Assembly: GCA_948468465.1 (NCBI GenBank)
Contig: CAOKJJ010000091.1
Coordinates: 1-19,008 of the forward strand
From: an uncultured Eubacterium sp.
GTDB lineage: Bacteria; Bacillota_A; Clostridia; Lachnospirales; Lachnospiraceae
DNA: 19,008 bases
Direction of reading: 5' to 3'
Shown here: one piece after another, positions 1 to 19,008 of the stretch
How the letters are laid out: every line of letters starts with the position of its first letter
Position numbering within the stretch: position 1 is the stretch's first letter
Position numbers and translations under genes: made by a program
Notes under the pieces: generated by a model
Seen by the model: only the letters and a program-made list of their open reading frames with translations
Database searches by the model: none
Told to the model about the DNA's origin: nothing

Positions 1-139
1 GGCTGTAAGCCAGGGGCGGACTACGCGACGCGACCGGACGCAGCCACAGAGTTTATGCAGAATGTCTAGAGATTCTTAGCATTCTGGAGTAGGAGCCGCA
101 AGCCAGGCCAGTTCCCCCTCACCCGGCGTCCGGGAATCC
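1..139 (+). ncRNA. 3' part of a structured non-coding RNA (cut by window start)
   Basis: No reading frame with a ribosome binding site is visible here; the stretch is GC-rich and full of short stems. Seen: hairpin GGCT-gta-AGCC at 1-11; hairpin CAGAATG/CATTCTG at 58-64/80-86; and the tail CGTCCGGGAATCC at 127-139, which is the exact reverse complement of 18899-18911 at the other end of the window. CGCAGC (39-44) and GCCAGG (102-107) can pair with GCTGCG (18973-18978) and CCTGGC (18920-18925), in nested order. I infer that this is the 3' half of an RNA whose 5' half is at the right end. The tail can also form a small local hairpin (CCCGG-cgt-CCGGG, 122-134), so the long-range stem is not the only option. 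It does not show the conserved segments of RNase P RNA, tmRNA or SRP RNA that I know. A raiA-type RNA is one untested possibility. Confidence 0.5.
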
Positions 140-199
140 AATCACGCACAAAAATGTCAAAAAGGTTTCTTTTCTGGTTCACCCAGGTTAGGAGTAATT

Positions 200-2269
200 A
201 TGTCAAAAACGTTATACATAGCGGAAAAGCCGTCAGTAGCGCAGGAATTTGCCAGGGCTTTGAAAACAGATATGAAAAGATATGATGGTTACCAGGAAGG
301 CGCGGATGCGGTTGTGACCTGGTGTGTAGGTCATCTTGTTACGATGAGCTACCCTGAGGCATACGATCCGAAATATAAAAAATGGAGCCTGTCCACACTG
401 CCGTTTCTTCCGCAGGAGTTTAAGTATGAGGTGATTCCAAGTGCGGCGAAGCAGTTCCGCATTGTTGCTTCTTTGCTCAACCGGAAGGATATTTCGCTTA
501 TTTATGTGTGCACGGACTCAGGGAGAGAAGGAGAATATATTTACCGGCTTGTCGAACAGCTTGCCGGGGTCAAAGGCAAACAGCGCAGGCGGGTATGGAT
601 TGATTCCCAGACTGAAGAGGAAATTTTGCGCGGCATTAAAGAAGCAAAAGATTTATCAGAATATGATAATTTAGCGTCCAGTGCGTATTTACGTGCAAAG
701 GAAGACTATTTGATGGGGATTAATTTTTCCAGGCTGCTTTCTTTAAAATACGGGGATGCGGTGGCGGCTTATCTGCATGAAAAATATGTCGTGATATCCG
801 TGGGCCGTGTCATGACCTGTGTGCTTGGCATGGTTGTTAGAAGGGAACGTGAAATACGTACGTTTGTGAAGACTCCGTTTTACCGGGTGCTGTCGCAGAT
901 TGATATTCAGGGCTATAAATTAGAATGTGAGTGGAAGGCAGTCGAGGGCTCTGCGTATTTTCAGTCACCTAAACTGTATAAGGAAAATGGTTTTAAGGAG
1001 AAAGACGACGCGCAGCATTTGATTGCGCAGCTGTCAGAACATCCGCCGGTTCAGGCGACCGTGTTTTCCATGGAAAAGAAAAAAGAGACAAAAAACGCGC
1101 CGCTTTTGTATAACCTGGCAGAACTGCAAAATACATGTTCTAAATTTTTTAAGATCAGCCCGGATCAGACGCTCGGCATTGTGCAGGAGCTTTATGAAAA
1201 GAAGCTGGTTACATATCCGCGTACGGATGCCCGCGTGCTTTCTACCGCGGCGGCAAAGGAAATTCGAAAAAATATCAGCGGTCTGTGTAAGGTTCCGGGC
1301 GTGCAGATGTTTGCGGAAACGATACTGAACAATAAAAGCTATGAAAATATAGGAAAGACACGTTATACCAATGATAAGCAGATTACGGACCATTATGCGA
1401 TTATTCCGACAGGGCAGGGTCTTGGGGCGCTTAAGTCATTGCATGCAAATGCCGCAAAGGTGTATGAGACAATCGTGCGCAGGTTTCTTGCCATTTTTTA
1501 TCCGCCGGCAGTTTATTTAAAATACAGCATAGTATTTCAGATAAAAGAAGAAAAATTTTTTGCGGGCTTTAAAGTGCTCAAAGATCAGGGTTACCTGCCG
1601 GTTATGGAATATTCTTTTTTTAAAAAGAAAGAAGAGGGAAGCACAGGGACAAAAGAGCATAAAAATGAAAAAAAAGATGCGGAAAACGAAGACGAGGCGG
1701 AATGGGATGCCGGATTATTGGAAGCGGTTGCTTCATTGAAAAAAGGCATGGTCTTTCCTGTAGATCAATTTCGGATCCGGGAAGGGGAAACTTCGCCGCC
1801 AAAACGGTATAATTCGGGTTCGATGATACTGGCGATGGAAAATGCGGGCCAGCTGATTGAAGATGAGGAGCTGCGGGCTACGATCAAAGGAAGCGGTATC
1901 GGCACAAGCGCAACGAGGGCGGAAATCCTCTCAAAGCTTGTAAGAAACAAATATCTGTCGCTGAACAAAAAAACGCAGGTCATTACGCCTACGCTGCTCG
2001 GTGAGATGATTTTTGACGTTGTAAACGCTTCGATTAAGTCGCTGCTGAATCCGGAACTTACAGCCAGCTGGGAAAAAGGGCTGACCTATGTCGCGCAGGG
2101 AACGATTACGACACAGGAGTATATGGAAAAGCTGGAGCATTTTATAGAGAGCCGTACGAGCGGGGTGCTGAACCTGAATAATCAGTACATGCTGCGAGGT
2201 ATGTTTGACCAGGCTTTTGCATATTATGGCAGTAGTAATAATAAGACGCAGAAAGGAAAAAGAAAATGA
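200..2269 (+). CDS. topB: DNA topoisomerase III (type IA topoisomerase)
   Basis: Type IA topoisomerase that cuts and passes single strands to relax negative supercoils and decatenate replication or recombination intermediates. The N-terminal Toprim domain carries Glu9 (IAEKPSVA) and the acidic motif TDSGREGE at about 105-112. The second Asp of the textbook DxDxE is Gly, as in the ATDAGREGE motif I recall from Bacillus TopB. The catalytic tyrosine is Tyr339 in TYPRTD. DHYAIIPT (397-404) and GIGTSATRAEIL near 585 are further signature segments. At 689 residues it is of usual TopB length, and it has no C-terminal zinc-finger repeats, which argues for TopB rather than TopA. Lys-rich linker residues lie at about 475-495. 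The start ATG follows TAGGAG (190-195). The stop overlaps the next gene's ATG by 4 bases. TopB is found both on chromosomes and on conjugative elements; no conjugation genes are visible here. Confidence 0.95.
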   Translation: MSKTLYIAEKPSVAQEFARALKTDMKRYDGYQEGADAVVTWCVGHLVTMSYPEAYDPKYKKWSLSTLPFLPQEFKYEVIPSAAKQFRIVASLLNRKDISLIYVCTDSGREGEYIYRLVEQLAGVKGKQRRRVWIDSQTEEEILRGIKEAKDLSEYDNLASSAYLRAKEDYLMGINFSRLLSLKYGDAVAAYLHEKYVVISVGRVMTCVLGMVVRREREIRTFVKTPFYRVLSQIDIQGYKLECEWKAVEGSAYFQSPKLYKENGFKEKDDAQHLIAQLSEHPPVQATVFSMEKKKETKNAPLLYNLAELQNTCSKFFKISPDQTLGIVQELYEKKLVTYPRTDARVLSTAAAKEIRKNISGLCKVPGVQMFAETILNNKSYENIGKTRYTNDKQITDHYAIIPTGQGLGALKSLHANAAKVYETIVRRFLAIFYPPAVYLKYSIVFQIKEEKFFAGFKVLKDQGYLPVMEYSFFKKKEEGSTGTKEHKNEKKDAENEDEAEWDAGLLEAVASLKKGMVFPVDQFRIREGETSPPKRYNSGSMILAMENAGQLIEDEELRATIKGSGIGTSATRAEILSKLVRNKYLSLNKKTQVITPTLLGEMIFDVVNASIKSLLNPELTASWEKGLTYVAQGTITTQEYMEKLEHFIESRTSGVLNLNNQYMLRGMFDQAFAYYGSSNNKTQKGKRK

Positions 2270-4409: not shown

Positions 4410-6953
4410 ATGTCTAAAAAGATTTTGAAAGAACTGACGCTGCTTTTAGCCGTTGTGATGATTCTCACAGGAATGCCGATAACGGTTCGTGCCGCGGCAA
4501 ATCCTGCATTTCAGACAACTTACTCGACCTTTTATGAAAATCGTGCCAACCAGGGCATTTATGATATTCAGGTCAACAATGTGCAAAAAGGCTACATATT
4601 GAAATGGCATATCACAGGAAAGGGCAAGAAATGGGCATCTTTTGACACGAAAAAGATCATTGCAAAAGGGACTACGGTGACAAATAAGCTGACGGTCGAC
4701 AGCAACGGAGAGTCAGCCTATGCTGCGGGCGAGCGGATCCGCATTACCGTAAATGTATACACGGCAAAGTGGAAACTGGTGGACAAGCTCACATTCGCGG
4801 GAAAACTGCAGAGCAAAGCGAAGTCGATCAATATTGATACGACAGGCATCAGTGACCTTAAGCAGTTAAAATCCGGTGAGACATATAAGCTGCGTGCGGT
4901 AATGACACCGCTCAACGCGACGAGCAAAGTATACTGGGAAGTAAAAGATGCCAAAGGTACGGACTGTTCTACACAGATTACCGCAGACGGCGCATGGACA
5001 CCGGCGCAGTCAGGAGAATATACGATTACCGCGATCGCTAGAAATTCTGCCAAAGGCGCGGCGCTTTGCACGAAGCAGATTCAGGCGACCGTTGGTACGT
5101 TTATCGAAAATATTGAACAGACTGCTTCGAATAAATTTAAAGTTTCATTTGCGACTGCTCCGGCAGTTACGTTAAAAGAAGCGGATTTTTCGATCAAGTC
5201 CGGTGAGACGACCGTTGTTGTGAAAAAAGTAAGCTATGCGGAAGACGGAAAAACGGTGGAAGTTACCACGTCCACAAACTTTATGGATGGCAAGGTTTAT
5301 AATGTGACATGCGCCGGATATTCGAAAGAGTTTACAGCCAGTGCGGGCAAGCCGGCGAAGCTTATGATTACGACGACCTCTGCGCAGGCAGGAAAATATA
5401 CGACGATTGAATACGCGTTTTATGACGCGAAAAATATTGATGTGACAGAAACGGTAAAAAGCGGGACGTTCCGCTATTCCGCGAATGTGACAAACGGGCT
5501 GCTTGACCAGCAGACGAACAAACTGTTTATGACGACGATCGGCAGCATCGCGAATGTGACATTAGAGTATACGGCAGTTGACGGCACACGCCTGACGGAT
5601 ACAAAGACGATTGTCTGCGTGGAACAAAAGGCTGAAGAAGCGGCGGATTCCAAGTTTACACTGACAAAAAGCGTACAGGCACCGACTTTCCAGGATGCGG
5701 AAGTGCGGGAGATTGCGATCGGCGATACCATGTATGCGCATTTTGCGGCATTGAATAAAAATGGCACAGCTATTACTTATGACAGCATTACATATACCTC
5801 TTCAGATCCGGACAGCCTGATTGTCAGTCCGGAAGGAAAGCTGACGCCGATCAAGGCGGGAAGTGTTACGATTGTAGTCACAGCGCTTCAGGGGACGATC
5901 CCGGTTACCTATTCCTATGATGTGACCGTGAAAGCAGGACGCTATCTGGCAACGATTCAAATGAAAGAGACAGCGATTGCCATGTCAAATACAGATGTGG
6001 CGGAATACCAGAAGATCGTACCGGTAACGGCTATGGATCAGTATGGAGAAACGCTTTCCCTGACAAATGCGACAGGAACAGTAACTGAATCTTATGGACG
6101 TACCATCGCGCGTTATGAGCCTTCGATCAACAGTATCGTAGTGACGACGCAAAGAGCGGCCGCAGGAATTTATAACTGCATTTTATCGCTGACTTCAAAC
6201 GGTGTGACATTAAAGCAGAATTTTACGGTGATTGTATCAGCGGTTCCGACAACGGGCGTGCTGACTTATCAGGTGGAAGTAAGCCATCCTGTTTTGGATT
6301 TGTCTGTAAATGAAAATACAGATATGTCAAATGTACCGAAGATTGAAGTACGTCTGGCAGAATACCGCGGCGGCGTATTTAATCAGTATATCCTGTTTGA
6401 GTCTGCCTACATTCAAAAAGGCAACGCAAAATACGCAAATGATATGAGGACGGTTGTAACGACTGACGGCGCGCTGGTGTCCAGCGGCAAGACGCTGGAG
6501 CTGAATCCGATTTATATCGGCCCGGTTGGGGATAACGGCGGACTCTTCTGCAGAAAAGCCGAAAAGGGAATTTATACCATTACGCTGAAATATAAACAGC
6601 AGGTTTCTTATATGGGAACATGGAGAAATGAAGATAAGACGGTTACTGCTAATGTCGAACTTACAGATACACAGGCGATACCGGATTACAGCATCCGCAG
6701 CCTGACGACAAGCACATCGGTACAGACAGCTTATCAGGTGGCTTTGGACTGCATTCAGCTGGCAAAGGATGACCAGATTATTGACTGTACCGTAACAGGT
6801 TCTAATAAGCTTGGCTCTTCTGTTTTAGTAAACAGCGGCGAACAGATTAATATTAGTACGATTACGATTCGTTCCGTAGTAACGATCAAAAATCAGCAAA
6901 AAGTATATGTAGATTATATGATACCGGTTGGAAGGACATTCACAAATCGTTAA
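4410..6953 (+). CDS. Secreted multi-domain Ig-like (Big_2-type) protein
   Basis: An 847-residue exported protein. The N-terminus has a Lys-rich start, a hydrophobic core (LTLLLAVVMILTGMPITV) and a likely signal-peptidase I site after VRA near residue 28. The rest is beta-rich, with Thr/Val/Lys-rich strands. Residues about 412-510 form a clear bacterial Ig-like group 2 domain (TYTSSDPDSLIV, LTPIKAGSVTIVVTA). A second, weaker Ig-like unit lies at about 135-228 and an S-layer-like strand pattern at 229-305; the C-terminal 300 residues are further beta-rich segments I cannot assign. No LPxTG anchor, SLH domain, lipobox or transmembrane helix is seen, so it is probably released or held non-covalently on the wall. 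A surface or adhesive role is inference. GAAGGAGGG at 4395-4403 is a strong ribosome binding site. It appears monocistronic, with its own promoter and terminator. Confidence 0.85.
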   Translation: MSKKILKELTLLLAVVMILTGMPITVRAAANPAFQTTYSTFYENRANQGIYDIQVNNVQKGYILKWHITGKGKKWASFDTKKIIAKGTTVTNKLTVDSNGESAYAAGERIRITVNVYTAKWKLVDKLTFAGKLQSKAKSINIDTTGISDLKQLKSGETYKLRAVMTPLNATSKVYWEVKDAKGTDCSTQITADGAWTPAQSGEYTITAIARNSAKGAALCTKQIQATVGTFIENIEQTASNKFKVSFATAPAVTLKEADFSIKSGETTVVVKKVSYAEDGKTVEVTTSTNFMDGKVYNVTCAGYSKEFTASAGKPAKLMITTTSAQAGKYTTIEYAFYDAKNIDVTETVKSGTFRYSANVTNGLLDQQTNKLFMTTIGSIANVTLEYTAVDGTRLTDTKTIVCVEQKAEEAADSKFTLTKSVQAPTFQDAEVREIAIGDTMYAHFAALNKNGTAITYDSITYTSSDPDSLIVSPEGKLTPIKAGSVTIVVTALQGTIPVTYSYDVTVKAGRYLATIQMKETAIAMSNTDVAEYQKIVPVTAMDQYGETLSLTNATGTVTESYGRTIARYEPSINSIVVTTQRAAAGIYNCILSLTSNGVTLKQNFTVIVSAVPTTGVLTYQVEVSHPVLDLSVNENTDMSNVPKIEVRLAEYRGGVFNQYILFESAYIQKGNAKYANDMRTVVTTDGALVSSGKTLELNPIYIGPVGDNGGLFCRKAEKGIYTITLKYKQQVSYMGTWRNEDKTVTANVELTDTQAIPDYSIRSLTTSTSVQTAYQVALDCIQLAKDDQIIDCTVTGSNKLGSSVLVNSGEQINISTITIRSVVTIKNQQKVYVDYMIPVGRTFTNR

Positions 6954-6961
6954 ATACAGTC

Positions 6962-6998
6962 AAAAAACAGACGTTTTACATCAAACGTCTGTTTTTTT
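6962..6998 (+). terminator. Rho-independent terminator after the secreted protein gene
   Basis: A 15-base stem (6962-6976 with 6983-6997, core CAGACGTTT/AAACGTCTG) closes a 6-base loop and ends in a run of seven T. The A-run on the 5' side could make it work in both directions. Confidence 0.9.
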
Positions 6999-7056
6999 GC
7001 AGATTTTTTAAGTGAATGTTTTTCATTTATAAAATGAAAAATTCTCACACTTTCAC

Positions 7057-7237: not shown

Positions 7238-7843
7238 ATGAACAATGGAATTGAGATCAGATGGCATGGAAGAGGCGGCCAGGGAGCCAAAACAGCAGCG
7301 CTGCTTCTGGCAGACGCGGCATTTCAGACTGGACAGTATGTACAGGGATTTCCTGAATATGGTCCGGAACGTATGGGCGCACCAATTACGGCTTATAACA
7401 GAATTGGACGGGAACCGATACGCGTGCATTCAAATATATATACGCCTGATCTGGTTCTTGTTGTGGATGAAACTTTGCTTCATTCGGTTGATGTAACAGC
7501 TGGACTGAAACCGGAAGGGGCTTTGATTATTAATACGCCAAAAACGAGGAAAGAGATACTGCCTTTGCTGCATGGGTATCGGGGCAGTGTTTATACCGTA
7601 GATGCCAGAAAGATTTCCGAAGAGACATTAGGAAAGAATTTCCCGAATTCGCCGATGCTTGCGGCGGCTGTTGCGGTCAGCGGTGTTATGGAACGGGAAG
7701 CGTTTTTAAAGGAGATGCAGTCCTTGTACGAGCATAAATTTGCAAAAAAACCGGAAGTCATCGAAGGAAATATGCAGGCGCTGTATGAGACATTTGACGT
7801 GCTGGAAGAAATGTTAAAACGTGATATAAGAAAAAGCGCATAA
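7238..7843 (+). CDS. porG: 2-oxoacid:ferredoxin oxidoreductase, gamma subunit
   Basis: The gamma subunit of a four-subunit thiamine-diphosphate enzyme that oxidises a 2-oxoacid with CoA to acyl-CoA and CO2, reducing ferredoxin in the cytoplasm. The N-terminal motif GRGGQGAKTA (11-20) is the hallmark of this Rossmann-like domain, which packs on the CoA side. FPEYGPERMGAP (about 38-49) and FPNSPMLAA (about 135-143) are typical. At 201 residues it is full length for a separate gamma chain. AGAAGGAGAT at 7221-7230 is the ribosome binding site. It is the first of four subunit genes in the order gamma, delta, alpha, beta, as in archaeal and Thermotoga POR/VOR. Clostridia usually carry out pyruvate oxidation with a single-chain PFOR, so this enzyme may act on another 2-oxoacid, but the sequence alone does not decide. 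Confidence 0.92.
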   Translation: MNNGIEIRWHGRGGQGAKTAALLLADAAFQTGQYVQGFPEYGPERMGAPITAYNRIGREPIRVHSNIYTPDLVLVVDETLLHSVDVTAGLKPEGALIINTPKTRKEILPLLHGYRGSVYTVDARKISEETLGKNFPNSPMLAAAVAVSGVMEREAFLKEMQSLYEHKFAKKPEVIEGNMQALYETFDVLEEMLKRDIRKSA

Positions 7844-7851
7844 AATGCAGC

Positions 7852-7872
7852 AGTTCAAGAGTTATCTGAACT
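7852..7872 (+). repeat. Second hairpin related to the operon-leader dyad
   Basis: AGTTCA/TGAACT (7852-7857 with 7867-7872) with a 9-base loop, followed by ATTAC. It repeats the core CAGTTCA...TGAACTrTTAC of the leader dyad at 7185-7212. It lies in the 72-base gap between the gamma and delta genes. Confidence 0.5.
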
Positions 7873-7921
7873 ATTACCATAAAATAGAATACATCAATAA
7901 TTAAATTGAGGATAAATGTTT

Positions 7922-8224
7922 ATGAGAACAGATGTACATAAAATTGATGAGCAGACAAGGCATCAGGACTTAACAGAAGGTCTGATGATGTTTGCGGCAG
8001 GAACGTCGAAATATTTTCATACGGGCGAGTGGAGGACAAGCACGCCTGTATTTCATGCGGATTTGTGCAGACAGTGCATGCTTTGCGTACCGGTCTGTCC
8101 GGATTCCAGCATACCGGTAAAGGACGGGGTGCGGGAGGATTTTGACTATGACCACTGCAAGGGATGTGGGATTTGTGCCAGTGTCTGCCCGTTTCAGGCA
8201 ATTACGATGAAGGAGGGAAGATAA
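7922..8224 (+). CDS. porD: 2-oxoacid:ferredoxin oxidoreductase, delta (2x[4Fe-4S]) subunit
   Basis: A ferredoxin-like electron-transfer subunit of 100 residues. Two classic cluster motifs are present: CRQCMLCVPVCP and CKGCGICASVCP, each C-x2-C-x2-C-x3-C-P, so it should carry two [4Fe-4S] clusters passing electrons from the alpha/beta core to external ferredoxin. I prefer the ATG at 7922 over the one at 7916: GAGGA at 7908-7912 is 9 bases from 7922 but only 3 from 7916. The stop is 2 bases before the alpha gene, and the alpha ribosome binding site lies inside this gene's end, so the two are tightly coupled. A 78-base gap containing a hairpin separates it from porG. Confidence 0.92.
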   Translation: MRTDVHKIDEQTRHQDLTEGLMMFAAGTSKYFHTGEWRTSTPVFHADLCRQCMLCVPVCPDSSIPVKDGVREDFDYDHCKGCGICASVCPFQAITMKEGR

Positions 8225-8226
8225 CG

Positions 8227-9408
8227 ATGGCGATCAAAGACCGTATGTCAGGCAATGAGGCGGTATCGTACGCAATCCGTCAGATCAATCCGGATGTTAT
8301 GCCCGCGTTTCCGATTACTCCGTCTACAGAGATTCCGCAGATGGTATCTGCGTATATCGCAAACGGGGAGATGGATACGGAGTTTATTCCGGTAGAAAGC
8401 GAGCATTCTTCCATGAGCGCGGCGATTGGAGCAGAGGCTGCCGGGGCAAGAAGCCTGACAGCAACTTCATCGGCAGGGCTTGCACTGATGTGGGAAGAAC
8501 TGCTGTTAGCGGCTTCCAACCGGATGCCGATCGTGCTTGCGCTTGTGAACCGGACGCTGTCCGGACCTATTAATATTAACTGTGACCATTCCGATGGAAT
8601 GGGGGCACGGGATACCGGATGGATTCAGATTTACGCGGAAAACAATCAGGAGGCTTATGATAATTTTATTCAGGCATATCCGATCGCGGAACACCAAAAG
8701 GTGCATTTGCCGGTCATGATCTGCCAGGATGGGTTTATAACAAGCCATGCTGTGGAAAATATAGAGCTGCTGGAAGACCATACAGTGAAAACCTTTGTCG
8801 GTGAATATGAACCGGAAGAGTATTTGCTTAATCCTGGAAAACCGATGGCAGTCGGGCCGTACTCGGCGTCCGGTTATGTGATGGAAGCAAAGAAAAACCA
8901 GGAAACAGCGATGGAGAACGCAAAAGAAGTAATATTGTCAGTGGCAAAGCGTTTTCAGAAAATATCAGGCAGAAGTTACGGATTGTTTGAACAATACCGG
9001 ACAGAAGACGCAGAATATATCATGGTGCTGATCGGCTCCGCGGCTGGAACTGCAAAACAGGCGGTCGATGACCTGCGTGCCAGAGGAAAAAAAGCGGGCG
9101 TGATAAAAGTAAGGGTCTTTCGGCCATTTCCGGCAAAAGAGCTGGCGGAAGCATTAAAAACATGTAAGATGGCGGCTGTTTTAGACCGCTGTGAGAGCTA
9201 TAATGGAAACGGCGGACCGCTTGGCTGTGAACTTGACGCGGCGTTGTTTCGAAATAAAATTGCAATTGAAACAGTAAATTATATCTATGGGCTGGGTGGT
9301 CGTGATTTTACGGTCCAGGAGGTGTATGCTGTATTTGAGGAAATGGAAGATGCCATTTTGCATGGAAAAAAAGTGGAACAGTATCAGTATATAGGGCTGC
9401 GGAAGTAG
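8227..9408 (+). CDS. porA: 2-oxoacid:ferredoxin oxidoreductase, alpha subunit
   Basis: A 393-residue alpha chain holding the pyrimidine-binding (PP) domain of the thiamine-diphosphate enzyme plus domain II. FPITPSTEIPQ (28-38) and ESEHSSMSAAIGAEAAGAR (about 59-77) are the standard signatures; the Glu of ESEH is the one expected to activate the cofactor. The NGNGGPLG region near 329-336 and the C-terminal YGLGGRDFT are also family-typical. The start at 8227 has AAGGAGGG at 8210-8217; an upstream in-frame extension overlaps porD and is not credible. The substrate is not readable: pyruvate, 2-ketoisovalerate and aryl-pyruvate enzymes share these motifs. A PorA-type enzyme is needed for aryl-acetate formation from aryl-pyruvates in Clostridium sporogenes, and the nearby aryl-CoA ligase makes that reading attractive here. 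Confidence 0.93.
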   Translation: MAIKDRMSGNEAVSYAIRQINPDVMPAFPITPSTEIPQMVSAYIANGEMDTEFIPVESEHSSMSAAIGAEAAGARSLTATSSAGLALMWEELLLAASNRMPIVLALVNRTLSGPININCDHSDGMGARDTGWIQIYAENNQEAYDNFIQAYPIAEHQKVHLPVMICQDGFITSHAVENIELLEDHTVKTFVGEYEPEEYLLNPGKPMAVGPYSASGYVMEAKKNQETAMENAKEVILSVAKRFQKISGRSYGLFEQYRTEDAEYIMVLIGSAAGTAKQAVDDLRARGKKAGVIKVRVFRPFPAKELAEALKTCKMAAVLDRCESYNGNGGPLGCELDAALFRNKIAIETVNYIYGLGGRDFTVQEVYAVFEEMEDAILHGKKVEQYQYIGLRK

Positions 9409-9417
9409 GAGGAAACG

Positions 9418-10458
9418 GTGGATAATCAGAAAGTGGACAATCAGAATCAAATAAATCAGGAAACAGGCAGTCCGGATTGTGTACAGCACGCCAGTGCCGG
9501 GAAGCCGGCGCCATACCGTCTGAAAGACTGGGTCAATCAGCCGGAACGTCTGGCGCCGGGACATCGTATGTGCGCAGGCTGCGGGGCGACGATAGGGGTG
9601 CGCGCAGTACTGCGTGCGCTTCATAAAGGAGATCATGCAGTGATTGGAAACGCTACCGGATGCCTGGAGGTATCTTCTTATATGTATCCGTATACCGCAT
9701 GGGAAGACAGTTACATTCATAACGCGTTTGAAAACGCGGGAGCGACTTTAAGCGGTGTGGAAACTGCTTATAAGGCTTTAAAGAAACGCGGCAGGCTGCC
9801 GGAAAATGAGAATTTTAAATTTATTACGTTTGGCGGCGACGGCGGCACGTATGACATCGGATTTCAGTCGCTGTCAGGTGCAATGGAACGCGGACATGAT
9901 ATGGTCTACGTATGCTATGACAATGGAGCATATATGAATACCGGCATCCAGCGTTCGTCAGCAACGCCGATGTACGCAGACACAACGACAACACCGGTCG
10001 GCAGCGAATCAGACGGAAAAATGCAGAACCGCAAAGACCTGTCTGCCATTATTGCAGATCATGATGTCCCGTATGTCGCGCAGACGACACTGACGCAGGA
10101 CTTTAAAGATCTGCATCTAAAGGCGGAAAAAGCAATTTATACAAAAGGGGCATGTTTTTTAAATATTATGACACCATGCCCGCGGGGATGGCGTTATGAT
10201 ACGCCGGAGATTATGAACATATGCAGGCTGGCAGTTGAGACATGCTACTGGCCGCTGTTCGAGGTAGATCACGGCGTATGGCGGCTGTCCTACGAACCGA
10301 AAAAGAAGCTCCCGGTGGAAGATTTTTTAAGGCCGCAGGGAAGATTCAGGCATTTATTTAAAAAAGGCAATGAACATTTGCTTGTACAGTTTCAAAAAGA
10401 AGTGGACAGACGCTGGGAAGAACTCCAGTACAAATGTGCGCGTCAGGAGCAGCGATGA
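9418..10458 (+). CDS. porB: 2-oxoacid:ferredoxin oxidoreductase, beta subunit
   Basis: A 346-residue beta chain that binds thiamine diphosphate and the proximal [4Fe-4S] cluster. Cluster ligands are likely Cys52 and Cys55 (MCAGCGA), Cys82 (ATGC) and Cys254 (TPCPRGW). The TPP/Mg motif runs from GDGGTYDIG (about 140) to NGAYMNTG (about 169-176). It starts with GTG at 9418, after AGGAGGAAA (9407-9415). The first 45 residues are an unusual Asn/Gln-rich, low-complexity extension ahead of the normal beta start (KDWVNQPERLAPGHRMCAGC); they may be disordered, and the true start could be further in, though no better ribosome binding site is obvious. The stop overlaps the LysR gene by 4 bases. Confidence 0.93.
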   Translation: MDNQKVDNQNQINQETGSPDCVQHASAGKPAPYRLKDWVNQPERLAPGHRMCAGCGATIGVRAVLRALHKGDHAVIGNATGCLEVSSYMYPYTAWEDSYIHNAFENAGATLSGVETAYKALKKRGRLPENENFKFITFGGDGGTYDIGFQSLSGAMERGHDMVYVCYDNGAYMNTGIQRSSATPMYADTTTTPVGSESDGKMQNRKDLSAIIADHDVPYVAQTTLTQDFKDLHLKAEKAIYTKGACFLNIMTPCPRGWRYDTPEIMNICRLAVETCYWPLFEVDHGVWRLSYEPKKKLPVEDFLRPQGRFRHLFKKGNEHLLVQFQKEVDRRWEELQYKCARQEQR

Positions 10459-11336
10459 CATTATTGACGTATCAGGTGTTTCAGACCGCGGCAAATATCG
10501 GCAGTTTTCAAAAGGCTGCCGATATTCTTGGCCTGACGCCGTCCGCAATCAGCCATGCGATATCTTCGATGGAAGATGAACTGGGGTTTAACGTGCTGAC
10601 CCGCAGCAAAGCAGGCATTACGCTGACAAACTATGGGGAGCATCTGCTGCCGTATGTCAACGCGGTATTAAACAGTGATGAAAGCTTACAGCAGGCCATC
10701 GCGGAACTGAATGGATTAAAGCAGGGAAAAGTTAAAATTGCCGTATTTTCCAGTGTATGTACAAACTGGCTGCCGGAGATTATGCGCTCTTTTGAAAAGC
10801 TGTATGATAAAATCAAGATCGAGGTATTTCAGGGAACCTATGACGATGTGTATTACTGGATCAAAAATGGCGTGGCTGATCTTGGATTTTTATCTGTATC
10901 CAGTGCAAAAGATATTCCCATCGAACCGTTGTATAAAGATCCTTTGCTGTGTGTCCTGCCCAAAGGAGCGAGAAAGGACAGCACCCGGCCATACATGGAT
11001 ATCGAAGAGATGCGTGCGTACCAGTTTGTGACGCAGCGTGAATGTACGGATGCAGACATTCAAAATTTTTTAAAAGAGAATTCGCTGCGCATTAAGTCCA
11101 ATTACCATGTGGTGGATGATTTGTCGACGATAGCGCTCGTGGCAAAAGGGTTTGGCATATGTCTGATGCCGGAGCTTGTCATGCGGGATATTCCTTATGA
11201 GGTTGATTGTTATCCCGTATATCCGCAGACTTGCCGCATTATTGGAATCGCCGCGCTGCACCCGGAATTTATGGCACCGGCAGTCCGTACGCTGTATCAT
11301 CATATTTTGGAAAATTATAAAAGTATATCAGGATAG
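10455..11336 (+). CDS. LysR-family transcriptional regulator
   Basis: A 293-residue LTTR. The N-terminal winged HTH is at about 4-62 (SFQKAADILGLTPSAISHAISSMEDELG), followed by a linker helix and a two-lobed periplasmic-binding-like effector domain (about 90-290, starting KVKIAVFSSV). The ATG at 10455 lies within the porB stop (ATGA) and has GGAG at 10446-10449; an upstream in-frame ATG at 10434 is poorly placed. Being the last gene of the oxidoreductase operon and translationally coupled to it, it probably regulates that operon and is co-expressed with it. Most LTTRs are instead divergent from their targets. The dyads at 7185-7212 and 7852-7872 are candidate sites. The effector is unknown; a 2-oxoacid or aromatic acid is a guess. 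Confidence 0.9.
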   Translation: MTLLTYQVFQTAANIGSFQKAADILGLTPSAISHAISSMEDELGFNVLTRSKAGITLTNYGEHLLPYVNAVLNSDESLQQAIAELNGLKQGKVKIAVFSSVCTNWLPEIMRSFEKLYDKIKIEVFQGTYDDVYYWIKNGVADLGFLSVSSAKDIPIEPLYKDPLLCVLPKGARKDSTRPYMDIEEMRAYQFVTQRECTDADIQNFLKENSLRIKSNYHVVDDLSTIALVAKGFGICLMPELVMRDIPYEVDCYPVYPQTCRIIGIAALHPEFMAPAVRTLYHHILENYKSISG

Positions 11337-11348
11337 GCGGTGGCTGAT

Positions 11349-11486
11349 ATGAGGCAGAGAGTTTTTGTAAAACTGAGGGAACAGGAAATCAAGAAAAGAA
11401 GAAAAAAATATGAATATTGGCAGACGATAGAAAATATAGGATGCAAAAGCCGTAAAAAGCTGATGCATCCTTATTTATGCGCTTGA
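11349..11486 (+). CDS. Possible small basic protein (45 residues)
   Basis: A 45-codon frame, MRQRVFVKLREQEIKKRRKK followed by YEYW...HPYLCA, starting 12 bases after the LysR stop. AGGCGG at 11335-11340 is a modest ribosome binding site. The product is very basic in the first half and has two cysteines. It resembles nothing I recognise, and its stop codon lies in the -35 box of the next promoter. It may be a real microprotein or chance. Confidence 0.25.
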   Translation: MRQRVFVKLREQEIKKRRKKYEYWQTIENIGCKSRKKLMHPYLCA

Positions 11487-11511
11487 ATAAAGCGAAATAG
11501 TATCGTATGAT
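11483..11511 (+). promoter_or_regulatory. Promoter of the flavoprotein gene
   Basis: TTGAAT (11483-11488), a 17-base spacer and TATGAT (11506-11511), about 50 bases upstream of the flavoprotein start. It suggests that the gene is transcribed apart from the oxidoreductase operon. Confidence 0.65.
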
Positions 11512-11561
11512 GAAAGAAGATAAAGCAGCAAATACAAAAGAAAAAAAGAGGGGTGAGCAGC

Positions 11562-12611
11562 ATGTATGATGTAATTGTGATTGGGGCAGGCCCGGCTGGA
11601 AGTACCGCGGCAAAAACACTGTCAGAAAGAGGATACAAAGTTTTGCTGATAGAAAAGTTTAAAATGCCGCGCTATAAGTCGTGTTCCGGTATTTTGATCA
11701 AAAAGACGCTGTCGCTGGCAGAACGCTGTTTCGGGGAAAGTGTGCCGGAATCTGTCATGTGTGAACCGGCGGAAAACAGGGGGATGATTTTTACTAATGA
11801 TAAAGGAAAAGAATATCGTTTTGAGCAGGAAGGGTGTAATATCTGGCGCAGTTCTTTTGACTACTGGCTCGTCAAAAAAGCAGAAGAAAAAGGCGCTGAG
11901 GTCAGAGAGGATACAATTGCAGTATCTTGTGAAGAAAAAGGAAATTTTGTAAGTGTCACACTGCATGGAAAGACAGAGAGTGTAAAACCTGGTATGAAAA
12001 CTTATACGGAAGAAGCAAGGTACATTCTGGATTGTGAAGGTGTGGGCCGTATGCTGAAACAAAAGATGATCCAGACGGTGCCCGCATATATTACTACGTT
12101 TCAGACGTTTCAGAATGGGAGCATAGATTTGGATCCGCATTATTTTTACGCGTATCTGCAGCCGGAACTGTCAGAGTATGATGCGTGGTTTAATGTAAAG
12201 GACGATTTGCTGGTGCTTGGCGTGGCGGTAAAGGATACCGGAAAGACTCGTTATTATTATGACCGGTTTCTCGCTTATATGAAAAAATGTCATCATCTTA
12301 ACATAGATAAGCAGATAAAATCAGAAAAATGGCTGATGCCGCATATCCGTCCAGGCTGCTATATTGATTATGGAGTGAATCACGTGCTATTTGCAGGCGA
12401 GGCCGCGGGATTTTTAAATCCTATGGGAGAAGGCATTTCGTCAGCGATGGAAAGCGGTTATGAAGCGGCTGCTGCCATAGCCGACCATTTTGATCATCTG
12501 GAACAGATCTATACGGTTTACCGGCAGAATACAGAAGGATTAAAATCGTATATGCAAAGACAGTGGAGCCTGGTTGGAGATATGGCGGAAACATTTAAGG
12601 AAATGAGGTAA
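11562..12611 (+). CDS. FAD-dependent oxidoreductase, geranylgeranyl reductase family
   Basis: A flavoprotein of 349 residues. The N-terminal dinucleotide fold is VIVIGAGPAGSTAAKTLSERG, followed by the PRYKSCSGIL segment typical of geranylgeranyl-reductase-like enzymes (PHBH fold). Near residues 275-300 is the second FAD motif, VLFAGEAAGFLNPMGEGISS. Family members reduce isoprenoid double bonds or act in quinone or lipid metabolism; many clostridial members have no known substrate. No membrane segment is seen. I place the start at ATG 11562, with GAGGGG at 11548-11553, rather than the in-frame GTG at 11553, which lies within the binding site itself. It has its own promoter. Nothing in the sequence ties it to the 2-oxoacid enzyme. 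Confidence 0.85.
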   Translation: MYDVIVIGAGPAGSTAAKTLSERGYKVLLIEKFKMPRYKSCSGILIKKTLSLAERCFGESVPESVMCEPAENRGMIFTNDKGKEYRFEQEGCNIWRSSFDYWLVKKAEEKGAEVREDTIAVSCEEKGNFVSVTLHGKTESVKPGMKTYTEEARYILDCEGVGRMLKQKMIQTVPAYITTFQTFQNGSIDLDPHYFYAYLQPELSEYDAWFNVKDDLLVLGVAVKDTGKTRYYYDRFLAYMKKCHHLNIDKQIKSEKWLMPHIRPGCYIDYGVNHVLFAGEAAGFLNPMGEGISSAMESGYEAAAAIADHFDHLEQIYTVYRQNTEGLKSYMQRQWSLVGDMAETFKEMR

Positions 12612-12614
12612 TTT

Positions 12615-12769
12615 TTGTCGGTAAAAAAGCTTGAAATCCCAAAAATATCCGTTTGGATATTCGGGTAACAAAAGAGGAACTAAAAATCCTTGACGACTAT
12701 TGTGAACGAAAAAATATAAAACGCCCACAGGGATTGCGTGACGGGATTAAAGCCCTTGAAAACTTATAA
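12615..12769 (+). pseudogene. Frameshifted ribbon-helix-helix (CopG/Arc-like) small protein
   Basis: Downstream of the flavoprotein, one frame reads LSVKKLEIPK from TTG 12615 and then goes off-frame. The neighbouring frame continues NIRLDIRVTKEELKILDDYC and ends ...LRDGIKALENL at a TAA (12767-12769). Adding one A to the A5 run at 12641-12645 would join them into a protein of about 51 residues with a clear ribbon-helix-helix pattern: a beta strand RLDIRVT, helix A EELKILDDYCERKN and helix B PQGLRDGIKALEN. So this is either a one-base deletion in a short homopolymer or a sequencing error. RHH proteins are DNA-binding regulators or antitoxins often carried by mobile elements; no toxin partner is visible. 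No good ribosome binding site is seen. Confidence 0.6.
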
Positions 12770-12771
12770 AG

Positions 12772-12812
12772 GAAGTGGTGCCACCGCCGGCAAAGGTAAT
12801 TTGCACCACTTC
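12772..12812 (+). repeat. 10-bp inverted repeat in an intergenic scar
   Basis: GAAGTGGTGC (12772-12781) and GCACCACTTC (12803-12812) with a 21-base loop, starting 3 bases after the broken RHH gene. There is no T-run after it. With the following GC-rich, gene-poor stretch to about 12900, it looks like a remnant of a mobile element or a degenerate terminator. Apart from this dyad, the RHH remnant and the next promoter, I see nothing in 12612-12986. Confidence 0.55.
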
Positions 12813-12918
12813 ACAGTATGCAACCCGCAGCAAGGCGAGCCGCACAAATATTATAGCACTGTTCGGGTGTGTCTTGCAAGCGGCTTGTGGAAGAAAGGAC
12901 AGGAAAGCTAATATTTTC

Positions 12919-12948
12919 TTGCGCAAAGGAAAAAAGATATGCTATAAT
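12919..12948 (+). promoter_or_regulatory. Promoter of the aryl-CoA ligase gene
   Basis: TTGCGC (12919-12924), an 18-base spacer and a perfect TATAAT (12943-12948), 38 bases upstream of the 12987 start. Confidence 0.65.
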
Positions 12949-12986
12949 GCTTTTACTACTAAAATTCAGAAAGGAACTTTAAAGCT

Positions 12987-14294
12987 ATGGAACACTATTA
13001 CCAGCCGGAAATCGAATGTGCTTCCAGAGACCAGATACGGGCCTGGCAGGATGAGAGATTGACGAAAACAGTGAAACGGGTTTATGAAAATGTAGCCTTT
13101 TATAAAAATAAAATGGATCAGGTGGGCGTAAAGCCTGAAGATATCCGATCTGTAGATGATTTACATAAGCTGCCTTTTCTCACAAAAGATGACCTGCGTG
13201 ATGCATATCCGTACGGCCTTTTGGCATCTCCTTTGTCTGACTGTGTCCGCATCCAGTCCACAAGCGGGACTACCGGAAGAAGGGTCGTCGCGTTTTATAC
13301 GCAGCATGACCTGGACCTTTGGGAAGAATGCTGTGCGAGGGCGATTGCCGCTGCCGGAGGTACAAAGGATGATGTCGTACATGTCTGCTATGGTTACGGC
13401 CTGTTTACGGGAGGCCCTGGCTTAAACGGCGGTTCTCACAAGATCGGCTCCCTGACGCTGCCAATGTCGTCAGGAAATACTGACCGTCAGATTCAGTTTA
13501 TGTGTGACCTTGGTTCTACGATTTTATGCTGCACGCCTTCTTATGCTGCTTATCTGGCAGAATCTATCTGGGAACGCGGCCTGCAGGATCAGATCAAACT
13601 AAAATCCGGTATTTTCGGCGCAGAAGCGTGGACTGAGGAAATGCGGCGGGATATCGAACAAAAGCTCGGCATCAAAGCGTTTGATATCTACGGGCTGACA
13701 GAAATATCGGGTCCGGGTGTGTCATTTGAATGCAGCGAGCAGACAGGCATGCATATTAATGAAGATCACTTTATTGCCGAGGTCATCAATCCGAAAACCG
13801 GAGAAGTGCTGCCGGATGGAGAAAAGGGCGAGCTTGTATTTACAAGCATTACAAAAGAAGCCTTCCCGCTGCTTCGCTACCGTACAAGGGATATCTGTAT
13901 TCTCAGCCATGAAAAATGCGCATGCGGCCGTACACATGTCAAGATGACCAAGCCGTTGGGACGCAGCGATGACATGCTGATTGTCAAAGGCGTCAACGTA
14001 TTCCCGTCTCAGATCGAAACGGTTCTGCTCAATCAGGGATATCCGGCGAACTATCAGATTATTGTCGGACGTAAGAACAACAGCGACACCATCGAAGTCC
14101 AGGTAGAAATGACACAGGAAATGTTCTCCGACAATGCCGGCATCGTCGCGCAGCGTGAAAAGAACCTTGTAAATGCGTTAAAAGCAATGCTCGGCATTTA
14201 TGTAAAAGTTAAACTCGTAAATCCAAAAACGATTACCCGAAGCGAAGGAAAAGCTGTCCGTGTCATAGACCAGAGAAATTTGTATCAGGGGTAA
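12987..14294 (+). CDS. paaK: Phenylacetate-CoA ligase family (AMP-forming)
   Basis: A 435-residue member of the ANL (adenylate-forming) superfamily that joins an aryl-acetate such as phenylacetate to CoA via an acyl-adenylate. The phosphate loop is STSGTTGRR (91-99), YGLTE lies at 235-239, the hinge/ribose region is YRTRDI (298-303) and GRSDDMLIVKGVNVFPSQIE (325-344) is the typical PaaK C-terminal signature. Cysteines in FECSE (249) and CACGRTH (311, 313) are positioned as in PaaK subgroups that appear to bind zinc. AAAGGAA at 12971-12977 precedes the ATG. It is followed by a tandem-ACT protein, a pairing often seen next to indolepyruvate or related ferredoxin oxidoreductases in anaerobes. 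Aryl acids are the likely substrates; the exact acid is unknown. Confidence 0.92.
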   Translation: MEHYYQPEIECASRDQIRAWQDERLTKTVKRVYENVAFYKNKMDQVGVKPEDIRSVDDLHKLPFLTKDDLRDAYPYGLLASPLSDCVRIQSTSGTTGRRVVAFYTQHDLDLWEECCARAIAAAGGTKDDVVHVCYGYGLFTGGPGLNGGSHKIGSLTLPMSSGNTDRQIQFMCDLGSTILCCTPSYAAYLAESIWERGLQDQIKLKSGIFGAEAWTEEMRRDIEQKLGIKAFDIYGLTEISGPGVSFECSEQTGMHINEDHFIAEVINPKTGEVLPDGEKGELVFTSITKEAFPLLRYRTRDICILSHEKCACGRTHVKMTKPLGRSDDMLIVKGVNVFPSQIETVLLNQGYPANYQIIVGRKNNSDTIEVQVEMTQEMFSDNAGIVAQREKNLVNALKAMLGIYVKVKLVNPKTITRSEGKAVRVIDQRNLYQG

Positions 14295-14386
14295 TGATCA
14301 TTTATATATTAAATGATTAAAATCAGAAAAATAAATTAGAAATAATGTATTTAGATATAACAAAATCAGACAGAAGGGGGATTTTT

Positions 14387-14818
14387 ATGACAGTAAAACA
14401 GATTTCTATTTTTGTAGAAAATAAACCTGGAAAACTGGCGGAACTGACCGAATATTTACAGCAGTCTCAGATTGACATGCGTGCGCTGTCCATTGCCGAA
14501 GCCCAGGATTTCGGCATTGTGCGCATTATCGTAGATGATGCCTACAAAACATCCTGCGTCTTAAAAGAAGCCGGATACGTTGCCTCCATTACACCTGTAC
14601 TGGCTGTTGAAATGCCGGATGAGCCTGGCAGCCTGTTTAAAATTTTAAAAATGCTTGGAGACGGCGGTGTCAATCTGGAATATATGTATGCCTTTCTGAC
14701 CCGAAAAAAAGCAACCGCTTATATGGTGCTTCGGGTGGAAAATAATGAAAAAGCCATTGAGGTGCTGAACAAAAACGGCATCCATACGATCTGTCAGGAA
14801 GCGCTTGCAAAATTATGA
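14387..14818 (+). CDS. Tandem ACT-domain protein
   Basis: A 143-residue protein made of two ACT domains, about 1-68 (VKQISIFVENKPGKLAELTE) and about 70-143 (VLAVEMPDEPGSLFKILKML). ACT domains bind amino acids and related small ligands at dimer interfaces. This stand-alone two-domain form is commonly encoded beside phenylacetate-CoA ligases and is presumed to sense an amino acid, perhaps aromatic, for that pathway; no enzyme domain is attached. I choose ATG 14387 because AGAAGGGGG lies at 14372-14380; an in-frame ATG at 14345 would place that binding site within the gene. The 92-base gap after paaK is AT-rich, with a weak hairpin but no strong terminator, so the two are probably co-transcribed. 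Confidence 0.87.
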   Translation: MTVKQISIFVENKPGKLAELTEYLQQSQIDMRALSIAEAQDFGIVRIIVDDAYKTSCVLKEAGYVASITPVLAVEMPDEPGSLFKILKMLGDGGVNLEYMYAFLTRKKATAYMVLRVENNEKAIEVLNKNGIHTICQEALAKL

Positions 14819-18164: not shown

Positions 18165-18794
18165 TTATTTCGTTCCAAAAATACGGTCGCCTGCATCTCC
18201 AAGCCCCGGACAGATATACGCATCCTCATTCAGACAGCGGTCCAGACAGCCGCAGTAAAGCTGTACATCCGGATGCGCATTATGCAGGCGCTCTACCCCT
18301 TCCGGCGCCGCGATAATACATAAAAATTTTATATGCTTCCCGCCATGCGCCTTGATAAAATCCACTGCCGCCACAGCCGAGCCACCCGTTGCCAGCATCG
18401 GGTCAAGCGCCGCAATGGTACGTTCTTCGATCGGGCTTGGCAGCTTGCAGTAATATTCTTCCGGCTCATGCGTCTCATGATTGCGGCAAAGGCCGATATG
18501 TCCGACTTTTGCACTCGGCACAAGCGTTAAAATCCCGTTCACCATTCCAAGCCCCGCACGCAAAATCGGTACAATGGCCAGCTTTTTCCCTGCAATCATC
18601 GGCGTCATACACGATTCAATCGGCGTTTCCACCTCCACCTTTTCCACAGGCAGATCCCGAAAAGCCTCATACCCCATTAAGACAGCAATCTCCTCCACTA
18701 ATTTGCGGAACTCATTCGTTCCCGTCCTTTTGTCCCTCAGCATGGAAATCTTATGCTGAATCAGCGGATGATCCATCAAAAATACATTATCCAT
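18165..18794 (-). CDS. upp: Uracil phosphoribosyltransferase
   Basis: Converts uracil and PRPP to UMP in the cytoplasm (pyrimidine salvage). At 209 residues it is standard length. The PRPP-binding loop is [19 protein letters not shown] (near 130-148), the uracil-binding C-terminus is [16 protein letters not shown], and PILRAGLGM near 76-84 is another family signature. AGGAGGAGG lies just upstream of the ATG (18798-18806 region, - strand). It has a good promoter of its own, facing away from the right-end RNA. Only 6 bases separate its stop from the AraC-type gene, an unusual partner for upp. Confidence 0.96.
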
Positions 18795-18841: not shown

Positions 18842-18870
18842 ATCTTACCATGCCGATTCTGAAAATGCAA
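18842..18870 (-). promoter_or_regulatory. upp promoter
   Basis: Reading the - strand: TTGCAT (18865-18870) as -35, a 17-base spacer and TAAGAT (18842-18847) as -10, with an extended TGG before the -10. It gives a leader of about 40 bases to the upp start. Confidence 0.7.
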
Positions 18871-18893
18871 CAGATCAGATATATTTGTTGCAT
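18865..18893. promoter_or_regulatory. Dyad between divergent upp and RNA promoters
   Basis: ATGCAACA (18865-18872) and TGTTGCAT (18886-18893) form an exact 8-base inverted repeat, with half-site centres 21 bases apart (two helical turns). The left arm covers the upp -35 box and the right arm touches the TATAAT of the divergent RNA. This geometry suggests a dimeric repressor or activator site; the protein is unknown. Confidence 0.45.
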
Positions 18894-18898
18894 ATAAT
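18893..18898 (+). promoter_or_regulatory. -10 box of the right-end RNA
   Basis: A perfect TATAAT six to eight bases before the predicted RNA 5' end (about 18904-18906). No good -35 box is seen at the usual distance, so the promoter may depend on a factor bound at the adjacent dyad. Confidence 0.45.
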
Positions 18899-19008
18899 GG
18901 ATTCCCGGACGACTCTGCACCTGGCGGGATGGTTTTGGCGGTCGGGACATGCCCTGAGCGGACTGGGGCAACGCTGCGGTGAACTAATCGCTAACTGCGA
19001 CTAAGACG
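18899..19008 (+). ncRNA. 5' part of a structured non-coding RNA (cut by window end)
   Basis: A GC-rich stretch with no supported reading frame, directly after a TATAAT. Seen: GGATTCCCGGACG (18899-18911), the exact reverse complement of 127-139; a hairpin from TCGGG/CCTGA (18942-18946 with 18952-18956, one G-T pair); and a hairpin TCGC-taact-GCGA (18988-18991/18997-19000). CCTGGC (18920-18925) and GCTGCG (18973-18978) can pair, in nested order, with 102-107 and 39-44. Joined to 1-139 this makes an RNA of about 245 nt with a closing stem and several internal hairpins. The strand is chosen from the TATAAT; on the other strand a TTGACA near 149-160 has no matching -10. The family was not recognised. 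Confidence 0.55.

Follow-up and report, generated by a model that had tools for sequence, protein, structure and literature searches.

In integron attC sites the structure is kept while the arms vary, and such sites are marked by conserved core sites and by the integron integrase. REPs are palindromes of 20-40 bp according to the main text of a paper on GTAG-/CGTC-tagged REPs, and that main text contains none of the terms Clostridi-, Firmicutes, Blautia or Lachnospir- (PMC3733652). Replication template switching was proposed in PMC8794818 as maintaining the hairpins of RNA genes. For the TwoAYGGAY motif (RF01731), the passages in PMC2864571 give the function as not known and the sources as the human gut, gamma-Proteobacteria and Clostridiales, and a passage of PMC4333381 records the proposal that the motif binds CsrA.

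Here, a stretch of 19,008 nucleotides from an uncultured Eubacterium sp. of the Lachnospiraceae (the window) was analysed. Each of its ends lies within a copy of a dispersed hairpin repeat, and the two repeats differ, type A standing at the right end and type B at the left. Type A, which has no match in Rfam and of which no description was found among the best-ranked matches in the open-licence literature on bacterial repeats and structured RNAs, appears to be a hitherto undescribed repeat family.

The two ends of the window

A sequence-only reading of the window had taken its two ends for the halves of one structured RNA, held together by a 13-base match of 18899-18911 with 127-139 and by two further 6-base helices. 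The match is an exact complement, with a true length of 14 bases (18898-18911 with 127-140). In 5000 dinucleotide-shuffled pairs of the last 120 and first 150 window bases, a complementary run of 13 was reached once and one of 14 not at all, so the match is indeed above chance. The two additional helices are no evidence, because runs of at least 6 bases occurred in 4960 of the 5000 shuffled pairs. The joined sequence of the two ends (249 nt) barely beat shuffles when folded (z -1.3), no overlap of 6-200 bases was found between the window ends, and a search against Rfam gave no match at cut-off in the whole window or in either end. The features at the two ends are given below, with the evidence in brackets.

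1..139, plus strand: 3′ half of type B, a TwoAYGGAY-like palindromic repeat, its 5′ side lost at the contig end (end-to-end alignment with complete B copies)
56..88, plus strand: inner stem strand of B, TGCAGAATG...CATTCTGGA (pattern match at 56; paired in the B consensus structure)
127..139, plus strand: terminal tag CGTCCGGGAATCC of B (complement of 18899-18911)
156..193, plus strand: 3′ outer terminal repeat of the element, GTCAAAAAGGTTTCTTTTCTGGTTCACCCAGGTTAGG (6 bases before the topB start codon)
200..2269, plus strand: topB, DNA topoisomerase III, directly 3′ of B (Pfam PF01131, PF01751)
18165..18794, minus strand: upp, uracil phosphoribosyltransferase, divergent from the A copy (Pfam PF14681)
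18865..18893, plus strand: small terminal hairpin ATGCAAC...GTTGCAT outside the A copy (read from the sequence)
18899..18911, plus strand: terminal tag GGATTCCCGGACG of the A copy (sequence; tag scan)
18912..18981, plus strand: 5′ arm of the type A hairpin, the 3′ arm lying beyond the contig end (layout as in complete A copies)
18978..19008, plus strand: 5′ part of the conserved apical core of A, cut by the contig end (covariance model R1; pattern match)

Window 1-139 aligned end to end with the 3′ half of the complete B copies L082, L090, L093, L099, L085 and L089, and B stands in the window immediately upstream of topB, on the same strand. At the right end, R1 matched 18978-19008 with 29.3 bits (E 1.5e-6; model positions 1-31 of 80, cut off at the 3′ side), and this was its sole match in the window at E up to 1. 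The sequence AACTAATCGCTAACTGCGACTAAG occupies 18982-19005, after which complete A copies continue with their own 3′ half (CTAAGTCTCCGTAAGCGCTGGATTTC onwards). Complete A copies in relatives carry the A 3′ half and complete B copies carry the B 5′ half. The right end therefore holds a 5′ half and the left end a 3′ half, as had been claimed, but of different repeats, and the two do not make up one RNA. The sequence-only reading was right in that both ends lie in structured sequence with dispersed copies in related genomes, but these repeats belong to two different families. Stem covariation is present inside A and inside B but absent between the two window ends.

The 14-base complementarity arises because some A and B copies have common terminal sequence. 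In a scan of 40 repeat-bearing loci for the tag GGATNCCCGGACG (at most one mismatch), 4 were positive, with the tag at the ends of the B copies L086, L090 and L093 and of the A copy L104. The outer terminal repeat of B copies was also found at the A copy in L118. The GTCAAAAAGGTTTCTTTTCTGGTTCACCCAGGTTAGG motif recurs in L001, and its reverse complement forms the outer end of the B copies L081, L085, L089 and L092 and stands 5′ of the A copy in L118. A hairpin like that at 18865..18893 stands 5′ of A copies in L114. The contig very probably terminates at both ends because these fall in dispersed repeat copies, and the complementarity as first stated is mostly an effect of contig ends falling in repeats.

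When window 1-199 was searched against the genomes of 12 relatives, dispersed matches were found in four of them (at least 47 in G001, at least 47 in G002, 17 in G003 and 2 in G004) and none in the other eight. These figures are not exact copy numbers: some palindromes contribute each arm as a separate match, and scoring covered 40 of 253 first-look candidates in G001 and 40 of 174 in G002. Of the 47 matches listed for G001, 14 or more begin within 61 bases of a contig start. Complete B copies form a palindromic element of about 240 nt, and the consensus structure from 12 sequences has 81 pairs, 29 of them with double changes. With pairs of G-U consensus excluded, 28 G-U were counted against 8 C-A, which fits an RNA on the window plus strand, and B may be an RNA element. 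The gathering cut-off of RF01731 (43 bits) was reached in 4 of 14 B-bearing loci (L082 45.1, L083 50.5, L087 46.6, L090 49.2); L100 scored 40.9, slightly under it, and the other nine had no listed match. The pattern A[CT]GGA[CT] was absent from 11 of 12 complete B copies and in L088 was confined to the outer stem, and two of three cmscan alignments of B to RF01731 left both inner hairpins unaligned. B is named TwoAYGGAY-like only, because the AYGGAY hairpin loops were not seen in the 12 complete copies. A SAM riboswitch lies near one B pair (L082:680-781).

The end match might have come from a circular molecule, real or collapsed in assembly, that left one structured RNA divided between the two ends. 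The complementarity above chance speaks for such a split, and against it stand the different repeat family found at each end, with its own other half, the lack of overlap of the window ends, and the gene order in relatives. Among 80 relatives found through topB (8 of which hold less than 2 kb upstream), none of the topB loci had a divergent upp within 2 kb upstream, which is where a 19 kb circle would place it. The order topB(+), hexapeptide gene(+), upp(-) was kept in 9 of the 80, with the window's own orientation; the number of genes between topB and upp is larger in the window than in these nine. We consider the circle extremely unlikely. Direct repeats of one same element that flank the 19 kb and could recombine are also very unlikely: the A and B copies with common outer terminal sequence would give short same-orientation homology at both ends, but the internal sequences differ, the A model being found at the right end only and the left end aligning with B. 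Nine window proteins have matches in ordinary families of bacterial proteins (topoisomerase, ferredoxin oxidoreductase and UPRTase among them), and we infer that the window comes from the chromosome and is linear, the assembler having been unable to continue through the repeats.

Several other features were recorded inside the window. The stretch 7238-14818 holds genes for 2-oxoacid:ferredoxin oxidoreductase (Pfam POR, POR_N, PFOR_II), followed by genes that, by eye only, resemble those of a LysR regulator, a phenylacetate-CoA ligase and an ACT-domain protein; together they possibly form an amino-acid or aromatic-acid cluster. The 847-aa protein encoded at 4410-6953 showed a weak Big_2 (Ig-like) match and is probably secreted or surface-located. 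Just after its gene, at 6956-7034, stands a hairpin with a T-rich end, which weakly resembles an Rfam sRNA (30.2 bits, cut-off 55) and is probably an ordinary terminator. A search for tRNA or tmRNA found none.

Conserved core and paired arms of type A

Type A is an imperfect hairpin that spans about 200 nt or more; the 80 nt at its apex form a conserved core. Covariation in this core was measured on 17 sequences (15 distinct, from 4 genomes), in which 96.9% of cells were paired, compared with at most 41.9% in slid controls. The same set showed 38 double-change cells versus 9.0 in shuffles, and 13 of its 26 pairs had double changes. Double-change cells numbered 385 versus 105.5 shuffled once the set was widened to 108 matches, of which 84 are distinct, and 135 versus 31.3 shuffled in the genome G012 (Blautia schinkii) alone (71 matches, 60 distinct), both sets consisting of sequences fitted to R1. 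In the G012 core, the count of further pair types was no higher than expected by chance, being equalled or exceeded in 177 of 500 shuffles. Lower down the stem, two pairs of the model were unpaired in 58 and 59 of the 60 rows. Seven unpaired bases (A10, A16, T19, C21, A26, T33 and C34) were invariant in 60 of 60 distinct G012 rows. The four G012 pairs from 12-69 to 15-66 varied with no G-U at all, the first being UA in 41 rows and CG in 18, the second GC in 46, UA in 11 and AU in 3, the third CG in 42, GC in 10, UA in 5 and AU in 1, and the last UA in 30 and CG in 29. G-U was seen at pair 20-61 in 9 of 60 rows, and U-G at pair 8-73 in 59 of 60. Mismatches in the multi-genome core set comprised 42 C-A versus 14 G-U, with related rows counted as they stand. 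A search of the A-bearing loci against Rfam gave only weak matches below cut-off to eukaryotic families, mostly plant or animal miRNA hairpins. A constant terminal tag GGAC, which had been seen by eye, is not claimed because G[GA]AC was found in only 14 of 82 copies, with noisy automatic calling of the stem ends.

The arms outside the core were examined in 66 distinct G012 copies, and 2089 Watson-Crick pairs (96%), 27 G-U, 27 C-A, 19 other pairings and 12 gaps were counted. Between copies, the identity of the G012 arms was 0.63 versus 0.56 for shuffled arms (65 arms, 600 pairs). The A arms of this genome are nearly copy-specific yet almost perfectly complementary. Since C-A on one strand is G-T on the other, the equal counts argue against selection on one RNA strand alone. 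The arms of 81 A copies from 13 other genomes, the stem limits of which are less clean, gave 133 G-U versus 76 C-A. The reading of arm pairing at the DNA level draws mainly on G012, and the counts in the other genomes are mixed.

Copy number, placement and turnover of type A

The A core pattern, with at most one mismatch, was found 145 times in G012, whose family we take to be Lachnospiraceae by established taxonomy, and 42 times in G001, 14 in G112, 10 in G002 and 3 in G067. It was found 0 times in G003 and G004, and the reversed core pattern used as a control gave 0 in all seven genomes. R1 matches were found within the family of G012 in at least 20 of 299 genomes (E up to 1e-5), within its genus in at least 20 of 64 (E up to 1e-3, weak ones included), in 4 of 5 of the genus of G112 and in at least 1 of 291 of the class, which was G112 itself. 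These genome counts are lower bounds, because searches over 40 genomes use stricter filters. One A copy searched against plasmids and another searched against phages gave no match, and the exact A core was found 0 times in viral contigs.

Type A often stands in convergent pairs and between genes in the genomes examined. Among the first 100 of the 145 places in G012, all 30 pairs of close neighbours (less than 1.5 kb apart) were convergent (plus, then minus). None of 54 A elements lay inside an ORF of at least 200 aa (mechanical ORFs), and the gene on the 5′ side ended toward A in 12 of 14 cases in G112 and 16 of 40 in G012. In 400 kb of one G012 contig, taken unselected, seven complete A copies were found by the model, all between ORFs, together with one more that was cut by the contig start and one further 5′ half at 89669 (by pattern). 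At least seven contigs of the Blautia schinkii isolate assembly (C1, C2, C3, C18, C23, C24, C26) start within 100 bases of an A core, indicating that A limits the assembly of isolates too. Short tandem repeats, some of them made from hairpin ends, flank A copies in L108, L109, L115 and L116 of G001, and a cobalamin riboswitch adjoins one A pair (L161:2476-2664).

The spacers of 20 A pairs in G012, compared with one another as a possible common cargo, showed no mutual match at E 0.01. In G515, two paired A copies and their spacer, which is alike from unit to unit, make up a unit about 550 bp long that is bounded by terminal repeats GTATACTTTTTTGTAATTC; no gene was seen inside this unit, which is repeated in many places. 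A motif of the GTATACTTTTTTGTAATTC type was found on both outer sides of G515 copies such as L244, L246, L247 and L253, and the flanks of the units showed no clear target-site duplication. No autonomous relative was recognised via the terminal repeat among the G515 loci read, and the search for a transposase or autonomous relative of A found none. Y1/RAYT was considered as a mobiliser of A and dropped, since Y1_Tnp was present in 6 of 11 genomes with R1 and in 6 of 9 without it, several of these hits being fragments and some genomes maybe incomplete, and no association was seen.

Seven A sites of G112 had a counterpart in another genome, five in G512 and two in G514, and A was present in both each time; the comparison was made among A-bearing loci, with one aligned flank at site 2. 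Site 1 was 93-98% alike throughout. At site 5 the arms were kept (0.88, 0.91) and the core was different (0.69), and at site 2 the core was kept (0.86) and the arms were different (0.60, 0.70). Site 3 was intermediate between these patterns, site 4 lacked part of the 3′ side in G112, and the G514 sites were about as alike as non-matching copies are (arms 0.60, core 0.73). Arms and cores of A thus differ independently at some matching sites. Some arm differences between species at sites 1 and 5 were one-sided and not mirrored, indicating that pairing is not restored at once. Two apical core types, ...GACTAAGAC...CTCGCGAGAG... and ...GACTATATTCACGAGGG..., were seen in L106, L127 and L156 of G112 and in L238 and L261 of G512, and matching sites of these two genomes can carry different types.

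Origin of type A and comparison with known systems

As a whole, the findings are probably best explained by a linear contig with A at its right and B at its left end, A being a REP/MITE-type element with arms paired largely at the DNA level. Type A would spread, or would once have spread, as a non-autonomous element of this type. Its apical core would be the recognition target of a putative enzyme or host protein on folded DNA (a single-stranded hairpin or cruciform), and its arms may be kept paired largely at the DNA level, by template switching or arm-to-arm conversion and not only by RNA selection. A bolder version, which we regard as rather unlikely, makes A a new class of dispersed folded-DNA element, with an apical motif read by a putative hairpin-specific recombinase or maintenance protein, exchangeable arms rewritten copy by copy through template switching, and cores and arms exchanged independently. 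Such independent exchange would give sister-species sites with the same arms and another core, as at site 5, or with a similar core and other arms, as at site 2.

Two other accounts of A were weighed, and we hold both to be unlikely. A and B could be structured RNAs, acting in cis in leaders or 3′ regions or in trans, that were amplified as useful to the host and whose arms are kept by RNA selection. The strong covariation with conserved unpaired bases would agree with this, as would the gathering score of RF01731 in 4 of 14 B-bearing loci, the excess of G-U over C-A in B (28 versus 8) and in the arms of other genomes (133 versus 76), and the gene ends that point toward the 5′ side of 12 of 14 A copies in G112. 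For A in G012, however, the arms show no wobble preference (27 versus 27) and the covarying core pairs virtually no G-U; moreover, A has no fixed downstream gene, reaches 145 pattern matches in one genome and has no match in the Rfam library. Alternatively, A could be an old MITE with copies that are now functionless, the core being conserved by recent spread and by conversion between copies. The terminal-repeat unit of G515, about 550 bp long, and the swapping of cores between copies (sites 3a and 5) are in line with such a history. It is hard to reconcile with A copies at matching sites in sister genomes, and with G012 copies so old that their arms are nearly unalike and yet invariant at the unpaired core bases in 60 of 60 rows. 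A REP/MITE-type element with largely DNA-level pairing of its arms remains our preferred reading.

Lachnospiraceae are among the main gut bacteria, and assemblies of their genomes are probably broken by A, whose core pattern was matched 145 times in a single isolate. The repeat could also shape gene ends, recombination and genome plasticity. The dozens of diverged A stems in one genome form a natural test of RNA selection versus DNA template switching in hairpin pairing.

Compared with RF01731, B has the long stem and the junction with two inner hairpins, but lacks the AYGGAY hairpin loops in its 12 complete copies and differs in being a high-copy dispersed repeat with terminal repeats common to A. 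Template switching of the kind described in PMC8794818 would give one-step Watson-Crick repair of stems without G-U intermediates, which is the pattern of the G012 copies of A; there, unlike here, it is described for RNA genes and not for a dispersed bacterial repeat. A resembles bacterial MITEs in G515, where the unit of about 550 bp is bounded by terminal inverted repeats, occurs in many places and has no gene seen inside. It differs from them in that a long hairpin with its conserved folded core makes up each half of the unit, and neither a target duplication nor a parent transposon was recognised for A. With REP, BIME and REPIN palindromic repeats (for GTAG- and CGTC-tagged REPs, PMC3733652), A shares a dispersed, intergenic, palindromic and high-copy nature, frequent inverted pairs and a frequent position 3′ of genes. 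The inverted pairing between genes that marks REPs and REPINs was found in A (30 of 30 close pairs among 100 of 145 places in G012). In contrast to their palindromes of 20-40 bp, A measures about 200 nt or more, has an apical core of 80 nt and long copy-specific arms, and shows no association with a Y1 (RAYT) transposase. A is unusual in its size, in the conservation of its core and, in one genome, in its wobble-free covariation.
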